Part shown: one piece after another, positions 6,801-58,462 of the stretch
How positions within the stretch are numbered: the first letter of the stretch is position 1
Layout: each line of letters begins with the position of its first letter
Source: Acorus gramineus
Lineage: Eukaryota > Streptophyta > Magnoliopsida > Acorales > Acoraceae
Direction of reading: 5' to 3'
Assembly (NCBI GenBank): GCA_030737835.1
Contig: CM060853.1
Location: 4,916,086 to 4,980,085, forward strand
DNA: 64,000 bases
Notes under the pieces: model-generated
The model's input: only the letters and a program-made list of their open reading frames with translations
Told to the model about the DNA's origin: nothing
Database searches by the model: none
Made by a program: the position numbers and the translations under genes

Positions 6801-7440
6801 GTGCTTTTCACAGTATAGTTGAAACTTTTGATTTATTCGAGCCTTTTGTATAAAAAAATAAAAAGAAAATAAAAGCCTCAAATAGTAACCTCACATGGAC
6901 CATGACCATAAAAATATGGGTAAAAAAAGACTCAGATAGAACCGACCCCAATAAAAACGAGCACAAGAGATTATTAATTTAATAAGAGAACAAATGGGTG
7001 CTCAAAAGAGGGTCCATGACATTGTATAAAACCCACACTCAGAGGTACGATTGGTACCACCAAACTCTGTTCAACCCGATGATGATGGTTGTGTTTGATT
7101 GCACGATTATAAAATTGATTTTATGTAAAATATAAGTTTAAAACTGATTTTTATATAAAATTGCTTCTCTACATCTTTTGAAAAACTCGAGTTTTGGATA
7201 TTTTTTCACAAAAATCTCTATGCAGCTTTTGATCCCACTTTTTCTATTTGAAAACAGATTTGAGAAAAACAATTTTCTGTAAGTCAAAAAGCTATCCAAA
7301 CTCATTTCCAAACAAGACTTATGATTTGGTAATTGGTGGGGTCATACAGATGGACTTTTCTAATTCAATACAAAATAATCCGGCCTTCAATCCGAGCCAT
7401 TCCACAGTGCTGAACAATCATTGATGGTTAGGTCATTGTA
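3880..7440. other. Intergenic, nothing recognised apart from the poly-G run
   Basis: AT-rich with poly-A and poly-T runs and short open frames. The stretch 7090-7320 (TGTTTGATTGCACGATTATA to CATTTCCAAACAAG) has hAT-MITE-like wording, but clear inverted ends were not established. Confidence 0.4.
6208..6222. repeat. 15-base poly-G run
   Basis: Fifteen consecutive G in AT-rich sequence. A shorter G-rich tract lies at about 21019-21041. Either could be slippage-prone or prone to assembly error. Confidence 0.9.
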
Positions 7441-7468
7441 TAATGGGTATAAAGCCATGGTACTGGTC

Positions 7469-7478
7469 TATTTATAGG
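7469..7478 (+). promoter_or_regulatory. TATA-like box before the candidate MIRNA
   Basis: TATTTATAGG lies about 30-40 bases upstream of the inverted-repeat 5' arm, the spacing expected for a pol II start just before the hairpin. A second TATAAA-like string lies near 7449. Confidence 0.4.
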
Positions 7479-7508
7479 CAAGAGGAGGTTCTGTGCAAGA
7501 GAGCATTC

Positions 7509-8195
7509 AAATGTTGAAGTTGAGAGATGAGGTTATGGAGGCGCTTGTCACAGGAGAGATGACACTGGTTTACTCTCCTTTGTAGCTAGTCAGGTCAAAA
7601 TCATGCTCTCTTTTCGCTTTTACATTACAAGATGGGTGTCGTTACACAAAGTCTCATTAACAGTCTTGTCTGTCGTTAGATTACACGATGTATATATCTC
7701 AGCAGGAATTTCTCGCATTTTCCATAAATAGGTCAGTATAATTCGTTGGAGCATATACCTCATATACATTATTAGGTGAGGTATATGCGGACTGTAATCC
7801 GGGCTATAAACGTGACTGTTCCCAACATTTTTCTTATACTTGTGTTTGTTTTTGCTTGACTAAATCATAAGGTTCTCATTTCATTAAATGGATGAAACTA
7901 TATACGATGATCATAGGTCCTTCTCATTTGATAAATCTTACACTGTTTCACTGATCGAAGTACCAAAAAAAAGAAACAAGCAGAGGTTCCCAATTCATTC
8001 CTTACAAGATATGTTAGAAACTACAAGAAATTGTAATATCTGTGTAGTTGCTGATGTTTTCAATTGCATGGCAGGTTTCCTAGAAAGAATAATACAAAGC
8101 AACTGAAGGGTGATGACTTGGTACAAGAGAGAGTAAACCAGTGTCATCTTCCTATGACAGGCTTCTCCAACCTCTTCTCTGAACTTTGATGTTTG
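7509..8195 (+). ncRNA. MIR3627: Candidate MIRNA precursor, miR3627/miR4376/miR5225-like (miR390 superfamily), long loop
   Basis: Arms 7509-7591 and 8112-8195 are reverse complements over about 83 nt with only scattered mismatches. Positions 7557-7577 and 8129-8149 pair perfectly over 21 nt. The 5' arm from 7545 reads TTGTCACAGGAGAGATGACA and continues CT. This differs at about three positions from the miR3627 sequence as remembered and shares the CAGGAGAGATGAC core of miR5225 and miR4376. The star would come from about 8141-8163. A TATA-like box (TATTTATAGG, 7469-7478) sits about 35 bases before the arm, as for a pol II start. The loop is about 520 nt, long for a plant miRNA. A good acceptor-like site (TTGCATGGCAG ending near 8073) suggests it might hold an intron. 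Known family members target autoinhibited Ca2+-ATPase transcripts; a target here is inferred. Either strand could be read, but motif orientation favours plus. Confidence 0.7.
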
Positions 8196-8628
8196 CCTTT
8201 TCTTCTTTATTTTTTTTTATTTTTTGGCTATGTTATCACAATGTTGTATGACCATTGACCACTTTCAAAAGCTAGTTCATCATCTCATGTAACAATAATG
8301 AAAATAAGTCTGAAATTGCAACCAGCCCCTCTTCTTGGTCTTATTTTAAGACATAAAACAACACACACTCATTTGAAAAGTGCATGAAGAGTCATATATT
8401 TTATTTGGAAGTGCGATATTTGTCTAATGAGACCATAAATACTACTGTAAAAAGTTCTACTTTTTTTTTACAATAATAAATTATCTTTTTAGAGACTCTA
8501 TCCCGATCATATATCAATCAGAATTTGGAGAGTCTCTAATACAAGAAAAAGATGGGAGAAGGACACACATTAGAAGAGAGTTCTACAACATGTGTCCACG
8601 CAAACCATTCACGCCATGATCCTTAGCC

Positions 8629-14600: not shown

Positions 14601-17600
14601 GATTCAAATGTCGAGATAAGTAACGGCCTTGGGACGAAAATTCAATGACAAATTCCATATCCAAATAGAACTACAAATAGCCCATGGAGTAAGATAAATG
14701 TCAGTTTCTCCAGTAATAAGCATGAATAATAAATACAAACTAATAGATATATATAACACCTGTTGTAGTCCAAAAGGACCTAACATTCTTGAACCCTCTT
14801 CAATATCTTCCCAAAAGGATTGATCTTCAGAAAGGCATATGATGACAGTTTCTGTAAGTCTCATCAATAACAAAGTAGCAAATCTTTCCCTACCGACAAA
14901 CATATCTGCGGCTATGCCTGCAATCCTATTGAGCTTTGCAAATAGTTCCTGTATTACAATTACACACATCAGAATTTATCTCAGATCTGATGCCAAAACA
15001 GCAATATGCCCACTGATAAATAAACAGCAAGCACAGCAATACATGAAACAAGGTTCAAAAGGAAAAATTGGCAGCGCAAAATCCATCAGCAATATGCCCA
15101 CCGATAAATAATCAGCTCTAGCAGATAGTACCTGAAATATCAATGATGGTGCCCACTCCGGTTCTGATATGTTTCCATCCATGTTTATATACATGTCTGC
15201 AGTTAAATTGCTATCACCATCTTCTGTGAAAATGAGATCTAGAGCATGCTGCCTACAGAAAAAATCTCGTAAGCCATCCACAGAACGCTGGAGCTTCCTC
15301 TTCCATTCTCTCTGTTCCGGCAAACGGTTTTGCCCGCCTGAAGCTCTTTTACGAGCATCATCTTTGTTGGAAACCTGGTACATGGAGGCAAGCTTCATTG
15401 CTGCACGAGGGAGTAGCTCGTCTGCTAACAAAGATGCATTTGCTAACAAAGCAATTTGTTGAGCCTCAGTCTCTGCCATTCTAACAATTTTATTCCCAGA
15501 ACCTTCTAAATTTTCCCCATCCTCAATTGAATTCGGCAAAGCATTTATAAGCAAGTTGATATATGACTTGAATACTTGTAAAAGACCATCCAATGTTCGA
15601 CCACCCAATTGCATAGTCACAAGTGGCCCTACATCTTCAAAGAATTCCTGTAAAAGAAATACAGAGGAAGAAATATGAGAATGCTCAAAGGATTCATTAA
15701 CTCTCTATGAACTGAACTCTAACAATTCAGGTTTAGGACATGAAAACACATAAAGGAAAAAAATTGAAATCTCCCAATAGTGTGCCTAGAAGAGAAGTTA
15801 ACTACAAGTTATATGGTAGAAAAAAGAAACATTGTTAACTGTTACTTTTTTTCCTCGTTACAGCACCAGTAGGAAGGAAACAAGTCAACTTTCTGATTAA
15901 CTACATCCATCACAGCAATCAGCTAATTTATGCTAATTAAATACTGCATCCTATATGATCTGATCAACTGCAAATTGTTCTTAAAGTAGCTCAAAGATAG
16001 TAAAGTCAAAGAGAGTCCCATCGTATATGAGATGGCACTGTTTGACACCATGATGAATGAACTGGAATCTAGTAATAAAATATATTTACCTGAACCATTG
16101 AATAGAAACGATGAGCACTGCTTGATAGTTTAGGCTGAAAGGCAGTTCCAGAACTAAGATGCACATTAGATGATCTACCGGATGGGCGTGTACCAGCTGG
16201 AGCATATGTAAGTACCCAATCGTCTGCAGCAGCTAGTGCAGCTGTGCTCTCTTCAATTCGTTTTAAGTTGGCATCTAATGCTTGTTCAACACTTGGCATA
16301 AACAGCTTCAAAATTACAGGACAAAGTGTCAAGCCCCATTCCTCCAACAAACTGCAATGACCCAAAGCAATTTGTACACATTCAGCAGCTGCTCTTAAGC
16401 CTCCGGCAGCGGCTGATGAAGCTAGTGCATTCCGCTTGACAAGTTGTGCAAATGCTTCTGTCTGCCTGATAGACCACACCAGTAGCTCAGATTTATATGC
16501 TGACTCTTCACCAAAAACAGCTTCAGAATCCCTAGCAGCTTGAGCAATAGCAGAGAATACTATTTGTGAGAGGGAGGCCGTGTAAGCTCCTCCATATGAG
16601 GTGTTTGATGGACGTATATTTTGCATGCTGGATTGATATTTTTTATAATGAGCATTAAGTAGCAAAATATGAGCCTGAGGGGCGTCCCCAAGTCTTTTAA
16701 GAGCAAAAGCAGCTGCACGAAGTTCAACACCACAAGTAGATGGCTGGCAAGCTGCTTCAGCAAGTTGATATGCTAATTTTTGTCTGAAGTATATTATAGC
16801 GGTCTGCAATGCTGAAAGCTCAGCTGCATTCAATGTATGCCCTTCTTCTGCTTCGGCCGCTAACCGATCCCCTTCATCAAGGGCAGTCAAGGCTTCATCA
16901 ACTCTTCTCTCAGCTAATAACACATCAAGAATGTCAGGAAACTCCATAGCCCATTTCTGTATATCAGATAGTTCTTTATCTTCAACATCATGTATTTCAC
17001 GTTCCATAGAACCTTCAGAAGCATTGGACAATGATTCAACATTAACTCCTTCAGCTAAACCATGAATAAGAGCTGCCTGAGTAGATAATAAATTTCTGAT
17101 GGAAAGGAGCTCGCCCTCTAGATCAGATATCTCCTTTGATGTGCTGTGGATAATTAGAAATATAAAACAAGATGCAAAATATGATAATTGGGCAAATATT
17201 GTATCTGTTGTTACTTCCAAATAAGAAAGTACAAACTAATTGAATATATTACATATGAAGCATTTAATATGTTATGCATCAAGCCTATTACAACATAATT
17301 CATAGTGGTTGTAGGAGAACAAAACCAAAAATAAATGCAATGCAAAAAGTTGTGAAATCATTATTTTCTGCTTTTTTTTTTTTTTTTTGCACATGTGTGT
17401 GGGTAGGGGAATGGACAAGTCATGCTGTGCCGCACCCTGACCTACTTAGACTCAAGATGTTTGAGCATTTCAGATACAAATAAACATTGAAGTGGATCGA
17501 TCCAAAAAAAATATTGAATGGGTAATTTTATTAAAGATACTCTCTTATGAAATATAATTATAATGAAATAACACGGACATATTTATTTATCTGCTCTGAG

Positions 17601-29300: not shown

Positions 29301-32300
29301 CAGGGGACCCCCCTGACTAATCCTATAGGACTTCCCCATCCCGATCACCGAAAAAAGGAGACGAGGGATCTCCTTACAAGATAAAAAAGAAAGGGAAAAT
29401 ACAATGATTTAGAAGAGAGATAAGATTTTACTATCCCCTTCGCCATATACACACAGTTATATACACACACACATTCAAGGTCAAATCAGCATACAAAGTA
29501 CATTGATTCTGTGATCATTGTTGTTGTTGTCAAGGACCAAGTCTGATATGCATGACATCTAAATCAATCTAATTGACCAATGTGGGATCACAAACAAGAA
29601 AGAATATCGCTGCAATCATCAAAGAAATACAAAAAGAAAAAATAGAAGAGAAAGTTGCTAAAAAACTAGTCAGTACTGAATCTATAAGCAGCAACACTCT
29701 AACAAGTAGATTCCAAATATATAAAAAAAAAAACACTCCGTCCTCCAATAAAAAAAATAGAAGAGAAAGTTGCTCAAAAACTAGTCAGTATTGAATCTAT
29801 AAGTAATAACACACTAACAATTAGATTCCAAATTAATTTAAAAAAACACTCTTGACAATTAAATGACCAATAAACACATTCCAAAATAGTTTTAAATATC
29901 GATCGCGATCTCGATATATCGGTCGATATATTGAAATCGCCGATGAAAACGCAAAAATCGGGGGATTTATCGAAGTTTTAGCTAAACTCGCTGACGTCAA
30001 TCAGCGATATATCAACGATATATCGACTATATCGACCTTATATCGTCGATATATCGACAGGCGATGTCCCAAACGCGACGGGCAGGGACCGGCAGCCACC
30101 AAATCACATCCATCCGGCACCAGAAATGAGTAGACCCGGTGGCCGGGTCGGAACCGGGAGACGGAGTCGACGACGCCGGAGTAGTCGGATCCGGGGACGA
30201 AAGGCAGCGGCGGCTTCTCCTGGTACTTTCTGAGGATCTGGAGGTAGTTGGCGTCGTTGAGGCTCGTCGCCCTGACTCGAACTCGGACCGAGGTCGGCGA
30301 TTGAAGGACCGGGACAGGGTGGGAGAGGGAGATCGTCAGGGGCGACGAGGGGTCGGCGATCGGGACCGTCGGATCGCCGATCGAACGGCAGAGAAGGGCT
30401 TCCACGGATGGAGAGATGTAGAAGAGGCAGTGAAAGCGACTCCCGTTTGTGTGTATATATATATATATCATTAAATACTCTCTTATATTGTTATTCATTT
30501 TTATTTTTTTTCACAATTTTATATCAGTTTTTGCTGTTTTTTTTCAGTTTTTTTTTTTTGAAAAAGAGCCAATCGATATATCGATTGAACCCGAAATCGA
30601 TATATCGATATTTTCGATATTTAAAACACTGGCCAAATAAATTTCCATCCTCCTGTTAGATTCCACAAAAAAAACACTCCAATCAAAAAAATAGAAGAGA
30701 AAGTTAGTACTGAATCTATAAGTAGCAACACTCTTAACAATTAGATTCCAAATTAAAAAAAAAATAAACACTCCAATAAAAAAAAACAATCTAACAATTA
30801 AATGACCAATAAACACATTCCAAATAAAATTTCCATCCTCCCCTACATAACAACTAAGCACATCTCATTAACATCACTACTCACACTAATTTTTAAACAC
30901 ATCTCCCTTGCAAAGATTAGCCACAGAGTAATATGTCCAGAATGCACAGCATATAATTATGCACAATGTTTACAATTTTAAGCTCATCCTATGAATATTG
31001 GGTCAAAATTATGGGATTGGACTGATACAGGTGCAAGCATAAGCAACACTTTTAATGATATAGCACTCTGATCCCTTTAAAATTCCATATAAACAGGATG
31101 ATACTTCAAAAATGAAATGGGCGCATGATGGGAATGGTACTTGTGATCTTCGTAGGAGGAAGGGGGAAACAAGGATCATCTATTTTTGGATGCCCTTTTA
31201 GTGTTCAGATTTGGGAGAAGGTCAGGAAGGCATTAGAATCCAATTGCTCCTTTAGGGATCTGGAAGGCGCATGGAGATTCCGTAAAAGACACAAAAGAAA
31301 GTGATCAAAGTAATCTTGCTAAATTTCAATGGCTTATTTCTCACGTGGCATGTTGTATACAAATAATTCATGATGAATGCATTTTCCAATACAAGAGGAT
31401 ATATGTGGAGAATATGTGGACAACGATTATATCACTTATTCAGGCATATGTTGCTTGGATTATAGGAGTGGAAAATCCTTCCACTATAATGGGAAATGAT
31501 TGGTTCGGGTAGCAAGAGGGAATAATTCTCCTTCCAGTCGGTTATGTTTTGGAGGAGTTTTTTCTTTTCATTTGTTGACCATTTTTATTTATCTTTTTTT
31601 TTTTTGAAAAAAATAAATATAGGAGTATCTTATTAAATGAAACCCCCTGAATAGAAGGAGACAATGGATCTCCTTAGAAAAAGTCAGAAAAGAGAGAAGG
31701 GAATTAGAAAAAAATAGCCAAGAGAGGAAGACCCCGCCATCATAAGAACCAAGCTTCTTTTGTAAGGAGACCCTCATCTTTTTTTGCTTGGGGGTTTTCT
31801 ATTAATAGCATGCACCTACACTCTTTTCCAAAAAAATAAAAAAACAGATACTTCAAAATGAATCTACCATAATTGATAGTCTACTTCCAATATATTCAAA
31901 TTTAACAAAAATAAAATATAAATCCAGCAAAAAAAAATATTGATAACGAAGGCTTCCATGTTTAATTTAGAAGATGCACAAAAGAAAAAAGAAGAAATAA
32001 CAACTTTGAGGTACCTCCTGAAGACAGAGAATGTCAGCATGGTATCCAACAATTTCTCGTAACAAGTTCTGCCTGCGATAAGGCCATGAAAGTGCCCATG
32101 ATGGGCAATAGCTGTACAGATCGTTTGTTGCATTTACATCTGAAAGAATGTTATATGAAAGCACAGTGAAGGCCCCAGAAGAAATTCTGCTCTCTGAATC
32201 CAAGTGTGCCATCACATCTCCAACAGGGATTAAGCAACGGGGAATGGGAGAGGGTGCAGGAATAGCACGAGAGGTGAAGTATGGAAAAGAGTTCCCCACA

Positions 32301-33870
32301 GGTAGTCTTGTTTCTACATTTACTGGTATGCATTCAAACTTCAATACGTGACCAATATCATCAGCAGTTGGTGTATAAGTCTTAGTATGTGCAACTTCAA
32401 ACCACGTCTCACCGCCATTTCTTTCTGTAACAATTGCAGGGTATGAAGGTGTTGTAATTGTTGTTGTACCATTTATCATGCTTGGGCTCTGACCCACATT
32501 AGAGATTGAACCCAATTGCCCTGAGTTAAGACCTCCCGATCCAGAACTACCAAATCGCCCAAACAACTCCTCTTCCTCAGTTCCATTTTCATTTACAGCA
32601 CAACTTGCCCTATCATGTAAAACACGATGATGTTGCCAAGCATCTGAAAAGCACTTAGGAGAGCAATGGTAACTCTTAGAAATAGGTATTTTTGCCTTGA
32701 TACAACCCAAGCACTGCAATGTTGCTTGTTCAGTAGGGTGTACACTGCAGACTTGAACTTTTTTGTCACTTTGAATACGATACCTGAATCAGAAATCACC
32801 AAATATGTATTTCACATATATTGAAGGCACTTGAATAAACATCCATCTTCCAACCCAACAAGTATTAGTGATATTAAACAAATTGAGTTAAGGTCATGCC
32901 AATATGGTATTTACAGTGATCTCACTTGTAAATGATATATTGAAAAATCACTTCTTCAAAGAAAACACAACCTTTTAAATAGAATGATGTTCAACGCTAA
33001 TTAAAGTCCTGCGTCCTATGTAACAAAATTTACTACTTCTACCAAGAAAAAAAAATAACTTTTCGTCTTTTCCACAACATTTAGTACAGGAATAACAAGA
33101 AAATGTGCATTTTTTAACAAATTTTACTCTACTTCTACATTTGTGATGGTAACAGAAGCAACAGGGTACCTCAATGCAATCACTGACAGAATCACATTGG
33201 AATAACTTAATTAAAAAAAAAATGCATTGGGCCTTCTACACATTCAACAAGCATGGTTAAAACTGCAAGGCAATATATATATAATAAACTTAGTCAAGAA
33301 AGCAAGGTCCAAATTTGATGAACAAGGAACCAACTTGCCAGATCTATTAAAAACCCATTCCCTAATAAGATCAAATCAAGTCAAATTTTCTGCATTTCCA
33401 AATTTTCAAGTCGACGAAACAAAAAGGCTTGCATTAGCCATCAAAATTCATGCATTTATGCTATAAAAAAAAAGAAGAAGAGTATAGTCTAAATCCTAGA
33501 CTCAATTAAGACACTTAAATCAACAAAAGGTCGTAGCTTCTTGATTTAAGTGTAGCTAAAACAGATAATAAGTGTAGCTAAAACAGACTTCAAATGATCT
33601 TCTCTCGGGACCAAATCCACCCATTAATGCTAGTTCATTCGATCACTGATAAAAGGTTATCAAACAATGAGAGAAAAACATCAGAGTCTCGAAAACATCA
33701 ATGATAACTCACCACCGGTACCTCAAGAAGCAACCATCGACGGGCGACGCCTCGGAGACGTCCTCGGGGGACGCGGACCCGTCGAGGTGCTTCAACAACA
33801 CGTACGGCGTGAGCTCGCACCCCACAATGGGAATCTCCGACGGGAGGTGCACGCGGAGCACGCTCACCAT
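26370..33870 (-). CDS. CCR4: CCR4-type poly(A) deadenylase (carbon catabolite repressor protein 4 homolog), complete, 11 exons
   Basis: Catalytic subunit of the CCR4-NOT complex, which shortens mRNA poly(A) tails in the cytoplasm. Exons on the minus strand: 33870-33713, 32783-32015, 29167-29081, 29004-28921, 28830-28744, 28641-28555, 27332-27279, 27180-27089, 27002-26888, 26784-26649, 26515-26370. Phase is kept throughout and gives 604 codons, the usual size of plant CCR4a/b. Residues about 65-110 form a Cys/His finger (HPTEQATLQC, SYHCSPKCF, AWQHHRVLH), the MYND-like region plants use instead of the yeast leucine-rich repeats. The exonuclease-endonuclease-phosphatase domain follows, with Glu309 in CLQEV, Asp466 in CGDFN, and Asp588-His589 in SSDHI. 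All catalytic residues are present. Intron 2 (2.8 kb) contains a tandem repeat, a Pack-MULE-like insertion and a LINE remnant. The start ATG opens the conserved stretch VRVHLPSEIPIVGCELTPY (here VSVLRVHLPSEIPIVG). Confidence 0.95.
29889..30632 (-). mobile_element. Pack-MULE-like element carrying a quinone-oxidoreductase gene fragment
   Basis: The ends are inverted repeats: GTTTTAAATATCGA on the left and its complement TCGATATTTAAAAC on the right, each followed inward by CGATATATCG motifs. Flanks are CCAAAATA (29881-29888) and CCAAATAAA (from 30633), an imperfect 8-9 bp duplication. A neighbouring repeat unit at 30801-30845 shows the same host sequence uninterrupted, i.e. an empty site. The GC-rich interior (about 30060-30420, minus strand) encodes a piece of a host oxidoreductase. 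The element sits inside CCR4 intron 2. Long or sub-terminal TIRs, about 9-bp duplication and gene capture fit the Mutator superfamily; the transposase is absent. Confidence 0.75.
30060..30420 (-). pseudogene. Captured fragment of a zeta-crystallin-like quinone oxidoreductase (MDR family)
   Basis: The minus-strand translation has VEALLCRSIGDPTV, VRVRVRATSLNDANYLQI, LRKYQEKPPLPFVPGSDYSG and VVDSVSRFRPGHRVYSF, then VPDGCDLVAAG. This closely follows the N-terminal GroES-like half of plant NADPH:quinone oxidoreductase-like proteins (At3g56460-like, from memory). The usual initiator Met position reads GTG. The segment between VYSF and VPDGCDLVAAG found in the family is missing here, and the Rossmann half is absent. 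It is a gene fragment inside the Pack-MULE-like element, on the same strand as CCR4, and is not expected to encode a working enzyme. Confidence 0.8.
31085..31610 (+). mobile_element. LINE 3' remnant in CCR4 intron 2
   Basis: Translated pieces FGCPFSVQIWEKVRKALESN and CSFRDLEGAWRFRKRHKRK match the zf-RVT end of plant LINEs; the following frame is interrupted. A poly-T stretch at about 31589-31601 begins another, oppositely oriented, retroelement-like tail. Same LINE type as in EXO84B intron 1. Confidence 0.55.
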
Positions 33871-55997: not shown

Positions 55998-58462
55998 ATG
56001 AAACAACCCAACTCATCCTCCACATCCCTCCTCCTCCTCCTCCTCTTCATACACTCTGTCTCCTCCCAAACATGCAGAAACACATGCGGACCTCTCCCCC
56101 TCCGCTACCCATTCGGCAGCGGCCCGGGCTGCGGCGACCCACAGTTCCAAACCTACCTAACCTGCAATGGCGACACCCTCCTCTTCAACACCCACACAGG
56201 CTCCTACCCTGTCGACTCCATCGACTACCCCAACAAGATCCTCCATGTCCAAGACCCCTCCATGACCACATGCACCACCTCCTCCACTTGCGCCACCACC
56301 CGCTTCGGCCTCAACTGGAACGCCCCCTTCACCTTCGTCGACGAAGAGGTCTTCGCCCTTTTAGGTAAACCTGTCTCAGATACGCTAATATAGGTATCCT
56401 TATTTTAATCTTTTAGATATGGATATTAATTTTCAGATTCAGATATCTTCAATTTTTTTTAGATAATTGACTTTTATAAATATGAATACTGATTTGATTA
56501 ATTATGTGATGTATTAAAATTTGAATTTTAAAACTTATTCTCTTTTGATCTCACGATAATTTTATAATCATAAAAAAATTTATAATTATTGTTGCGTCCT
56601 CTCTCTCTTCTAGTCCCTTTCTTTTACTACGATTTCTCAAAAAAACATCATACATAAGATAATAAATTTGAACAATACATAATATAAACATACATAATTT
56701 TATAATATATATATCAGATTTAGATATTTTTCAAATAAGATATCAGCACTACTCCATATATTCAAAATTTCAAGGAATCGGAGCGAGATATGGATTTTTT
56801 TTTTGGCTTAATTAATTACTTTCAGGGTGCTCCATCAACGGCGACACCACGAACCGGACCGTCCCTCTATGCGACACGAACGACGACGCGCGCATCTGTG
56901 ACTTCTTAAGCACATGCCCTTCCGTCACCGGCTTTGGGTCGTCGTGCTGCGTTTACAGCCCGGTGACTTTGGGTCCTTCGTTCGAGATGGATTTGGGGAA
57001 GCTGAAGTGCGGATCCTATGTGGGCATTTACGGCTTCAACGATCAGATGATGAATCCGCAGGCGTGGAAGTACGGGTTCGGTATCAAGTACAGGTTCAGC
57101 GTGGACAACGGGGTTCCCGGCGCGTGCGGCGATTGTGAGGCGAGCAATGGCGTTTGCGGGTATAACGGGCCGTACAGTTCCTTCGTCTGCAGCTGCGCGA
57201 ACGGGATCAACACCACCAACAACTGCTACTTCGCGGCTTCTTGGAATCGGGCGGATTTCGTCCGTCCCTTCTCCATGGGTTAGTACTTGGTAGTACCTAG
57301 AATTTTTTTTTTTTAGTGAAAAGTTTAGGCAGCATTTTGGAAACTTTGGCTTTTCAAAGAAATTGTCCAATTTTAATGGTCCGGATCCAGTCAGGTCTGA
57401 GTATCATTAGTATCATACTGCACAACTTATGAATCAAACTGCATAATTAATTGTTGATTACAGTATCACTATTTGTGCAATTCGATATTGATGGTATTGA
57501 TGCTACCAGGCCTGATTGGATCTGGACTCCAATTTTACAAAATCATTTAAAAATCCATATATTTTATTAGTCACTTACAAATATATATTTTGTTAGATTT
57601 TTTTTTTCATATTCTATAAATGAGTCCAGTTTATTAGAGCATATGCTTTGTCTTTTACTAAAATATATATCTTATTAGATGATGTATATACATATACACT
57701 ATTTAAAAAAAATTATAATGGGTACAAATTGTGTTTAGAGCTGAAAATGAGACTGAATCCACATTTTTCTTTAAAAAAAAATTGTCTAAACTCTAAATTA
57801 AGAGTATTCTTACACTCAACAAATTGAAGCATATATAGTTTATTTTACAAAGTACGTACCTCATTGCATGATGTTTTTTTTTTTACAAAAATAAAAAGGT
57901 ATGAACTGCATTTGTGGTTGGAAACAGGGCTGAGTCTAACATTGTCCCTAAATTAATCAATTTCAAACATTAGTTTCGATAAAGATGCTGATATACTCTA
58001 TTTATTTTACAGGATCATTTACAAACACCATGTCACTAATATAATATATAAAATCATTTAATGCAATATATTCTATATTATCTTAGTATATATTGTATTA
58101 AGTAAAACATATATATGTGTTCAATTTTATTATATCATGTACTTCATTTTTTTTATTTATAAAAACTATACTTCATTAGCTATATATATTTCTAAAAACA
58201 TTCAAAACCTGTGCTGACAGAAAAAGAAGAAGCACTAGTTCTGATTTACAGCTCAGCTTTTGTCCAATGACTTTTGTGTAGAAAAAATAAAGTCCTAAAA
58301 TAAAAAAAAGTTGACTTTCCAAATTATATACAATTGATATTTTAGATAAAGTTCTTGGATTTATGACTGAGATATCTTATATACTATTCTTTGTATTTGT
58401 TTATGGTGGTTTCAGGGATTGGGTTGATATCATTGTGGAGTCTGGCCAGGACCATGTTCTGA
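55998..58462 (+). CDS. GUB_WAK-type cell-surface protein without kinase domain, 3 exons
   Basis: Secreted or membrane-attached protein of the wall-associated-kinase galacturonan-binding family; the ligand is not known from sequence. Exons: 55998-56364, 56826-57278, 58416-58462; phase is kept and gives 288 codons. Residues 1-24 are a signal peptide with a poly-Leu core ending SVSSQ. The mature part starts TCRNTCGPLPLRYPFG, the classic GUB_WAK signature with paired cysteines, and continues with GPGCGDPQFQ and SIDYPNKILHV. Exon 2 adds CDTNDDARIC, SSCCVYSPVTLGPSFEMDL and an EGF-like C-terminal part (GDCEASNGVCGYNGPYSSFV, then CSCANGINTTNNC). The last exon is only 47 bases and encodes a short hydrophobic end (GIGLISLWSLARTMF). 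No kinase exon follows. The exons are GC-rich against AT-rich flanks. An AATAAA lies 56 bases after the stop. It resembles the Arabidopsis At3g17350-like kinase-less group, from memory. Confidence 0.85.

Follow-up and report, generated by a model that had tools for sequence, protein, structure and literature searches.

The locus at positions 7508–8195 of the analysed stretch of DNA (64 kb in length, here called the window) very probably represents a plant MIRNA gene, one from a known family directed against calcium pumps, and it possesses an unusual loop bearing repeats. More specifically, its sequence allows it to be assigned with considerable confidence to the miR3627/miR4376/miR5225 group, as a diverged tandem duplicate of a short-loop member and with ACA-type Ca2+-ATPase transcripts as predicted targets. 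Membership in this group is deduced from a paralog with matching TATA box spacing and a likewise bulged position 12 in the mature strand, from pairing with ACA genes, and from a site placement that is the same as in grapevine. The family had already been proposed in the initial annotation of this DNA, and it is now backed by the short-loop paralog 8.8 kb off together with the ACA sites. The separation of the two arms by half a kilobase is probably due to repeat DNA that landed in the loop, and splicing may therefore be needed before a microRNA can be produced. Founding work on the miR3627/4376/5225 family is reportedly that of Xia et al. 2013 and Wang et al. 2011.

Structure of the Predicted Precursor

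The following features were compiled for the locus:

7448–7453, plus strand: second TATAAA, recognized from the sequence
7469–7477, plus strand: TATA box TATTTATAG, 45 nt before TTGAAGTT of the 5' arm
7508–7592, plus strand: 5' arm of the precursor stem, from inverted-repeat detection and folding
7545–7566, plus strand: predicted 22-nt mature microRNA TTGTCACAGGAGAGATGACACT, from the fold and complementarity to two ACA genes
7594–8074, plus strand: candidate GT-AG intron of 481 nt, with donor CAG/GTCAAA, branch CTGAT at 8051–8055 and acceptor GGCAG/G
7625–7633, plus strand: left copy of TTACAAGAT, possible 9-bp target-site duplication
7634–7821, no strand assigned: repeat B, degenerate, right end uncertain
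7822–8001, no strand assigned: repeat A, judged MITE-like by eye; its right end is near 8001 and its left end uncertain
8002–8010, plus strand: right copy of TTACAAGAT, possible 9-bp target-site duplication
8114–8195, plus strand: 3' arm of the precursor stem, from inverted-repeat detection and folding
8142–8162, plus strand: predicted 21-nt star strand TGTCATCTTCCTATGACAGGC, from the fold with 2-nt 3' overhangs assumed

The initial annotation had described two arms of about 83 nt pairing across about 520 nt, 21 perfect consecutive pairs among them, a family-like mature sequence in the 5' arm and a TATA-like box upstream. All of these elements were recovered at the expected places. Inverted-repeat detection returned a pair of 36-nt arms (I1, 7557–7592 and 8114–8149; 89% complementary) with 521 nt between them, and folding of the arms around an artificial A spacer yielded a stem reaching from 7508/8195 to 7592/8114, the longest perfect helix of which comprises 21 bp (7557–7577). 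The family-like mature sequence corresponds to TTGTCACAGGAGAGATGACACT, and the spacing of the TATA box TATTTATAG is matched in the paralog, where it is 44 nt. The native sequence from 7490 to 8210 folded at -218.5 kcal/mol (z -6.75), a value that was equalled by none of 20 shuffles. Folded alone, the loop was no more stable than expected at random (z +0.39), with 32 letter shuffles out of 50 folding equally well or better, indicating that the significance of the fold resides in the arms.

Positions 7480–8220 of the window, which lies on contig C7, were searched against the whole genome (398.6 Mb), with 20 matches listed and 18 candidates scored. Among the 20 matches listed, the arms pair only with each other on opposite strands (83%, E 2.4e-11) and the remaining 17 fall inside the loop; the same search missed the diverged paralog, which was found by a pattern search, and further diverged copies of the arms may thus exist. 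The window gave no Rfam match at the gathering threshold.

Genes in the window are plant genes. Open reading frames of neighbouring genes gave the following Pfam matches:

16069–17220, minus strand: exocyst Exo84 C-terminal domain
30001–30498, minus strand: alcohol-dehydrogenase-like N-terminal domain
31967–32719, minus strand: exonuclease/phosphatase with AIR9 domain, CCR4-like as read
55998–56393, plus strand: wall-associated-kinase galacturonan-binding domain

Just 5' of the MIRNA promoter, positions 7079–7314 gave a 237-column match (75%) to a place on contig C9 (L014/L028). A two-mismatch match to the mature pattern was observed about 1.2 kb from the 75% stretch at that C9 locus.

Mature/Star Duplex and Family Assignment

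Plant MIRNA annotation calls for few mismatches in the duplex, a foldback not much longer than 300 nt, and reads for both miRNA and star strand. The predicted duplex contains one mismatch (7551/8154) and one single-nucleotide bulge, the G at position 12 (7556), and its mismatches are accordingly few. The unspliced foldback amounts to 688 nt and exceeds the length named above. A length of at most slightly more than 300 nt is cited for 98% of plant hairpins in PMC11706861. The group is characterized by a 22-nt strand and an asymmetric duplex able to trigger phasiRNAs. Here the duplex is predicted to be asymmetric: the bulge at position 12 appears in the folds of both paralogs, and the lengths of 22 and 21 nt rest on the assumed 2-nt overhangs.

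Like the miR3627/miR4376/miR5225 members of grapevine, apple and tomato, the locus encodes a predicted 22-nt miRNA on its 5' arm with the core CAGGAGAGATG. The comparison of mature sequences covered two published relatives. TTGTCACAGGAGAGATGACACT shares 18 of 22 positions with Populus miRn32, a sequenced small RNA named as novel in PMC3630063, and 16 of 21 with a primer for pear miR4376-5p (PMC4233070). The precursor of Populus miRn32, whose relatedness is our reading, spans 144 nt (PMC3630063), as compared to a loop of 521 nt here. A literature search using the mature sequence as a string gave no match, and related strings retrieved one paper. As a further observation, two exact matches to the miR390 sequence were located at C5:28450845 and C8:6466204. 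MiR390 has been proposed as the ancestor of the miR3627/4376/5225 superfamily.

The Short-Loop Paralog

The pattern search uncovered the paralog TTGTCGCAGGAGAGTTGGCACT at C7:4914839–4914859 (L011), 8.8 kb upstream of the locus and about 1.2 kb outside the window, which folds as a canonical short-loop precursor. Both copies begin their 5' arm alike and agree in TATA spacing, in the geometry of the duplex with its position-12 bulge, and in the target site, whereas the paralog differs by its short loop and by G at position 6, T at position 15 and G at position 18 of its mature strand. Among the 36 alignable stem pairs, 24 are identical in the paralog, four are changed on one side, one is changed on both sides and seven are broken, six of the latter lying below the duplex and one (7559/8147) within it. 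With these counts, covariation provides weak support and the retained duplex the better one. From their sequences, we read the locus and C7:4914839 as a diverged tandem pair. About 550 nt downstream of the paralog, an acceptor-like TTTTTTTGCAG was noticed by eye, which may belong to an intron of the paralog's own transcript.

Predicted Target Sites in ACA-Type Ca2+-ATPase Genes

Screening of the genome for the family pattern with up to three mismatches revealed 32 places, versus 14 for the reversed control. Seven of the 32 contain at most two mismatches, namely the locus, the paralog, two ACA sites and three others. The two ACA sites (C3:19964093 and C6:12428662) are antisense and lie immediately upstream of ACA-type genes, both of which are among the six matches, read as five genes, to the ACA N-terminal domain (PF12515). 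The start of the 22-nt site precedes the ATG by 35 nt on C3 and by 38 nt on C6, leaving gaps of 13 and 16 nt, respectively. Hence, Ca2+-ATPase transcripts, previously suggested from knowledge of the family, do carry complementary predicted sites ahead of the start codon in two ACA genes. For the other three ACA-type genes, no site with a penalty below 10 was found in the surrounding 3.1-kb stretches, outside of which their 5' leaders may lie.

Mature-to-target penalties for the two ACA genes are 3.0 and 5.0 with TTGTCACAGGAGAGATGACACT, the paralog reaching 2.5 and 4.5. At position 6, TTGTCACAGGAGAGATGACACT forms an A:C mismatch with both targets where the paralog is paired, and the C6 site has a second mismatch; at positions 15 and 18, TTGTCACAGGAGAGATGACACT pairs better than the mature strand of the paralog. 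An ungapped partner test around L009–L016 proved uninformative, since it missed even the two real hairpins with their bulged duplex. Furthermore, a 36-nt block (94% identical) was observed upstream of both ACA sites (L025, 1387–1422; L026, 1577–1612), perhaps representing a conserved leader or promoter element; no alignment between this block and the miRNA site was found.

The target site of the miR3627/4376/5225 group in the ACA 5' leader is thus present by sequence and is placed as in grapevine, where the site lies just before the ATG of an ACA-type Ca2+-ATPase (PMC6404619). In that article, miR5225/miR3627/miR4376 were reported to act 14–40 nt upstream of the Ca-ATPase10 start, within an annotated 5' UTR intron that the authors thought to be mis-annotated (PMC6404619). 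For Malus, ACA8 is listed as target of miR3627 and miR5225 in PMC4523022, where AT-hook proteins also appear among the targets of miR3627, and in an apple degradome study miR3627 was assigned an amino acid transporter (PMC3446319). In view of these additional targets, ACA genes need not be the only ones.

Repeat DNA within the Loop

Much of the sequence between the arms resembles repeats. One part (about 7832–8003; repeat A) resembles a dispersed repeat matching at least 16 other places of the genome, and a second part (7633–7763; repeat B) has a 71% match at a single further locus (L043). The two copies of TTACAAGAT are positioned at the outer edges of the repeat homologies, and a third copy is distant (29374). 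Direct repeats of at least 9 nt occurred by chance in 386 of 20,000 random pairs of 41-nt stretches (about 2%) and in 143 of 200,000 pairs of 13-nt stretches, the latter test having been designed after the repeat was seen. With moderate confidence, the TTACAAGAT pair can be regarded as a putative target-site duplication.

The inverted ends of the repeats are degenerate, being reached by 5 of 500 shuffles for B, 119 of 500 for A and 491 of 500 for the outer ends of B plus A. Accordingly, B plus A as a single inverted-repeat element is unsupported, and terminal repeats of A, judged from the copy in the loop, are not above chance. Without the insert the loop would comprise 144 nt. Folding of this repeat-free loop gave no more structure than expected at random (z +0.46), an equally low energy being reached by 199 of 300 shuffles, and a longer ancestral stem is therefore unsupported as well. 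Taken from the sequence, the loop was probably lengthened by insertion of repeat DNA at about 7634–8001, flanked by TTACAAGAT. Such an insertion, which the initial annotation had not considered, is a probable cause of the long loop and is compatible with splicing. No paper on transposon insertions in long-loop MIRNAs was retrieved from the literature.

Candidate Intron between the Arms

The initial annotation had noticed an acceptor-like sequence near 8073 and had suggested that the arms might be joined by splicing. The acceptor GCATGGCAG was indeed located, ending at 8074, and its side of the intron looks good, with the branch-point A of CTGAT 20 nt before the intron end; the window has 9 or 10 acceptors of such quality on its plus strand. 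In contrast, the donor CAG/GTCAAA is weak, as its score under general dicot base frequencies is equalled or exceeded by 5.8% of all GT dinucleotides in the window. Among 28 donors picked by eye from candidates in two ACA genes, with 14 introns per gene, none had C at position +3. Better scores are obtained for three donors within the repeat (7732, 7776 and 7781). Within the stretches available, a donor and an acceptor of this kind would coincide by chance in 0.1–2.6% of cases depending on criteria and strand, with criteria set after the site had been seen. Removal of 7594–8074 would leave a hairpin of 207 nt. Considering these signals, the excision of the loop as an intron is put forward tentatively and falls short of being probable.

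The literature on introns inside the miR3627/4376/5225 stem-loop was screened by title and no such title was found, although a passing mention could be missed in this way; the titles found for intron-containing stem-loops in general led to no plant case that was taken further. Two comparable systems are described in PMC11706861. In Solanaceae, MIRtop14 is intron-split, its arms being 700 bp apart until the intron is removed, and resembles the present locus by its distant arms and by the short hairpin left after most of the sequence between the arms has been removed. It differs in that another miRNA is encoded, LPR is targeted, and splicing was demonstrated there by RT-PCR, while it is only inferred here (PMC11706861). 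In MIR444 of grasses, an intron likewise separates the 5p and 3p strands, but this gene is monocot-specific and belongs to a different family (PMC11706861). The authors of this article knew only miR444 as a previous intron-split case, and hairpin predictors folding 300–400 nt were stated to miss such genes (PMC11706861).

Proposed Model and Alternative Interpretations

In the proposed model, RNA polymerase II would transcribe the locus from about 7500, DCL1 would release the 22-nt miRNA, and AGO1 would then cut the ACA 5' leader. Phased siRNAs may also be triggered, either by the length of 22 nt or by the asymmetry of the duplex. For an active gene, the likeliest route past the 521-nt loop would be to splice out most of its length, either as the intron 7594–8074 or from the better-scoring donors 7776 or 7781. 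This ranking follows from the one measured precedent considered, the non-spliceable form of miRtop14: from a pri-miRNA with about 700 bp between its arms, mature miRNA was almost undetectable (PMC11706861). Splicing is accordingly the likeliest route to activity, and the chief alternative is a dying duplicate.

According to that alternative, the repeat insertion would have silenced the locus and left the function to the short-loop paralog located 8.8 kb upstream, which is a serious contender without being the expected outcome. A functional-looking short-loop paralog is present, the mismatch of the mature strand at position 6 affects both ACA targets whereas the paralog is paired there, and the identical 9-nt flanks would fit a recent insertion after which the arms have not yet decayed. 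On the other hand, 21 consecutive pairs and a clean duplex persist, and the mature strand outpairs that of the paralog at positions 15 and 18.

It is rather unlikely that the long-loop precursor is processed unspliced. DCL1 processing in the base-to-loop direction measures from the base of a long lower stem, so that loop size would be irrelevant, and the stem below the miRNA is in fact long and nearly continuous; the weakness of the 7594 donor also points in this direction. However, this route is opposed by the almost undetectable mature miRNA of the non-spliceable pri-miRNA referred to above (PMC11706861).

Finally, a MITE or other transposon origin of the inverted repeat itself, which the initial annotation would have accepted had many arm copies been found, was rejected as highly improbable despite the dispersed MITE-like repeats within the loop, since the arms match only each other among the 20 matches listed and since a 22-mer with matching ACA sites and a short-loop paralog with like TATA spacing speak against it.

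Significance of the Probable Tandem Pair

Returning to intron removal, the complete scenario is somewhat doubtful: a member of a known family would have become intron-split through a repeat-enlarged loop, and splicing would gate a regulator of calcium pumps, with a tandem short-loop sister that is independent of splicing. If spliced, the locus would join a very small class comprising miR444 and miRtop14. If the scenario is true, it would represent a third kind beside these two, with an unsplit sister in the same genome showing the origin of the split. The tandem pair of short- and long-loop genes with common predicted targets would offer a natural test of loop length versus splicing as a control of microRNA output, and also of how the insertion of a repeat could create an intron-split microRNA.
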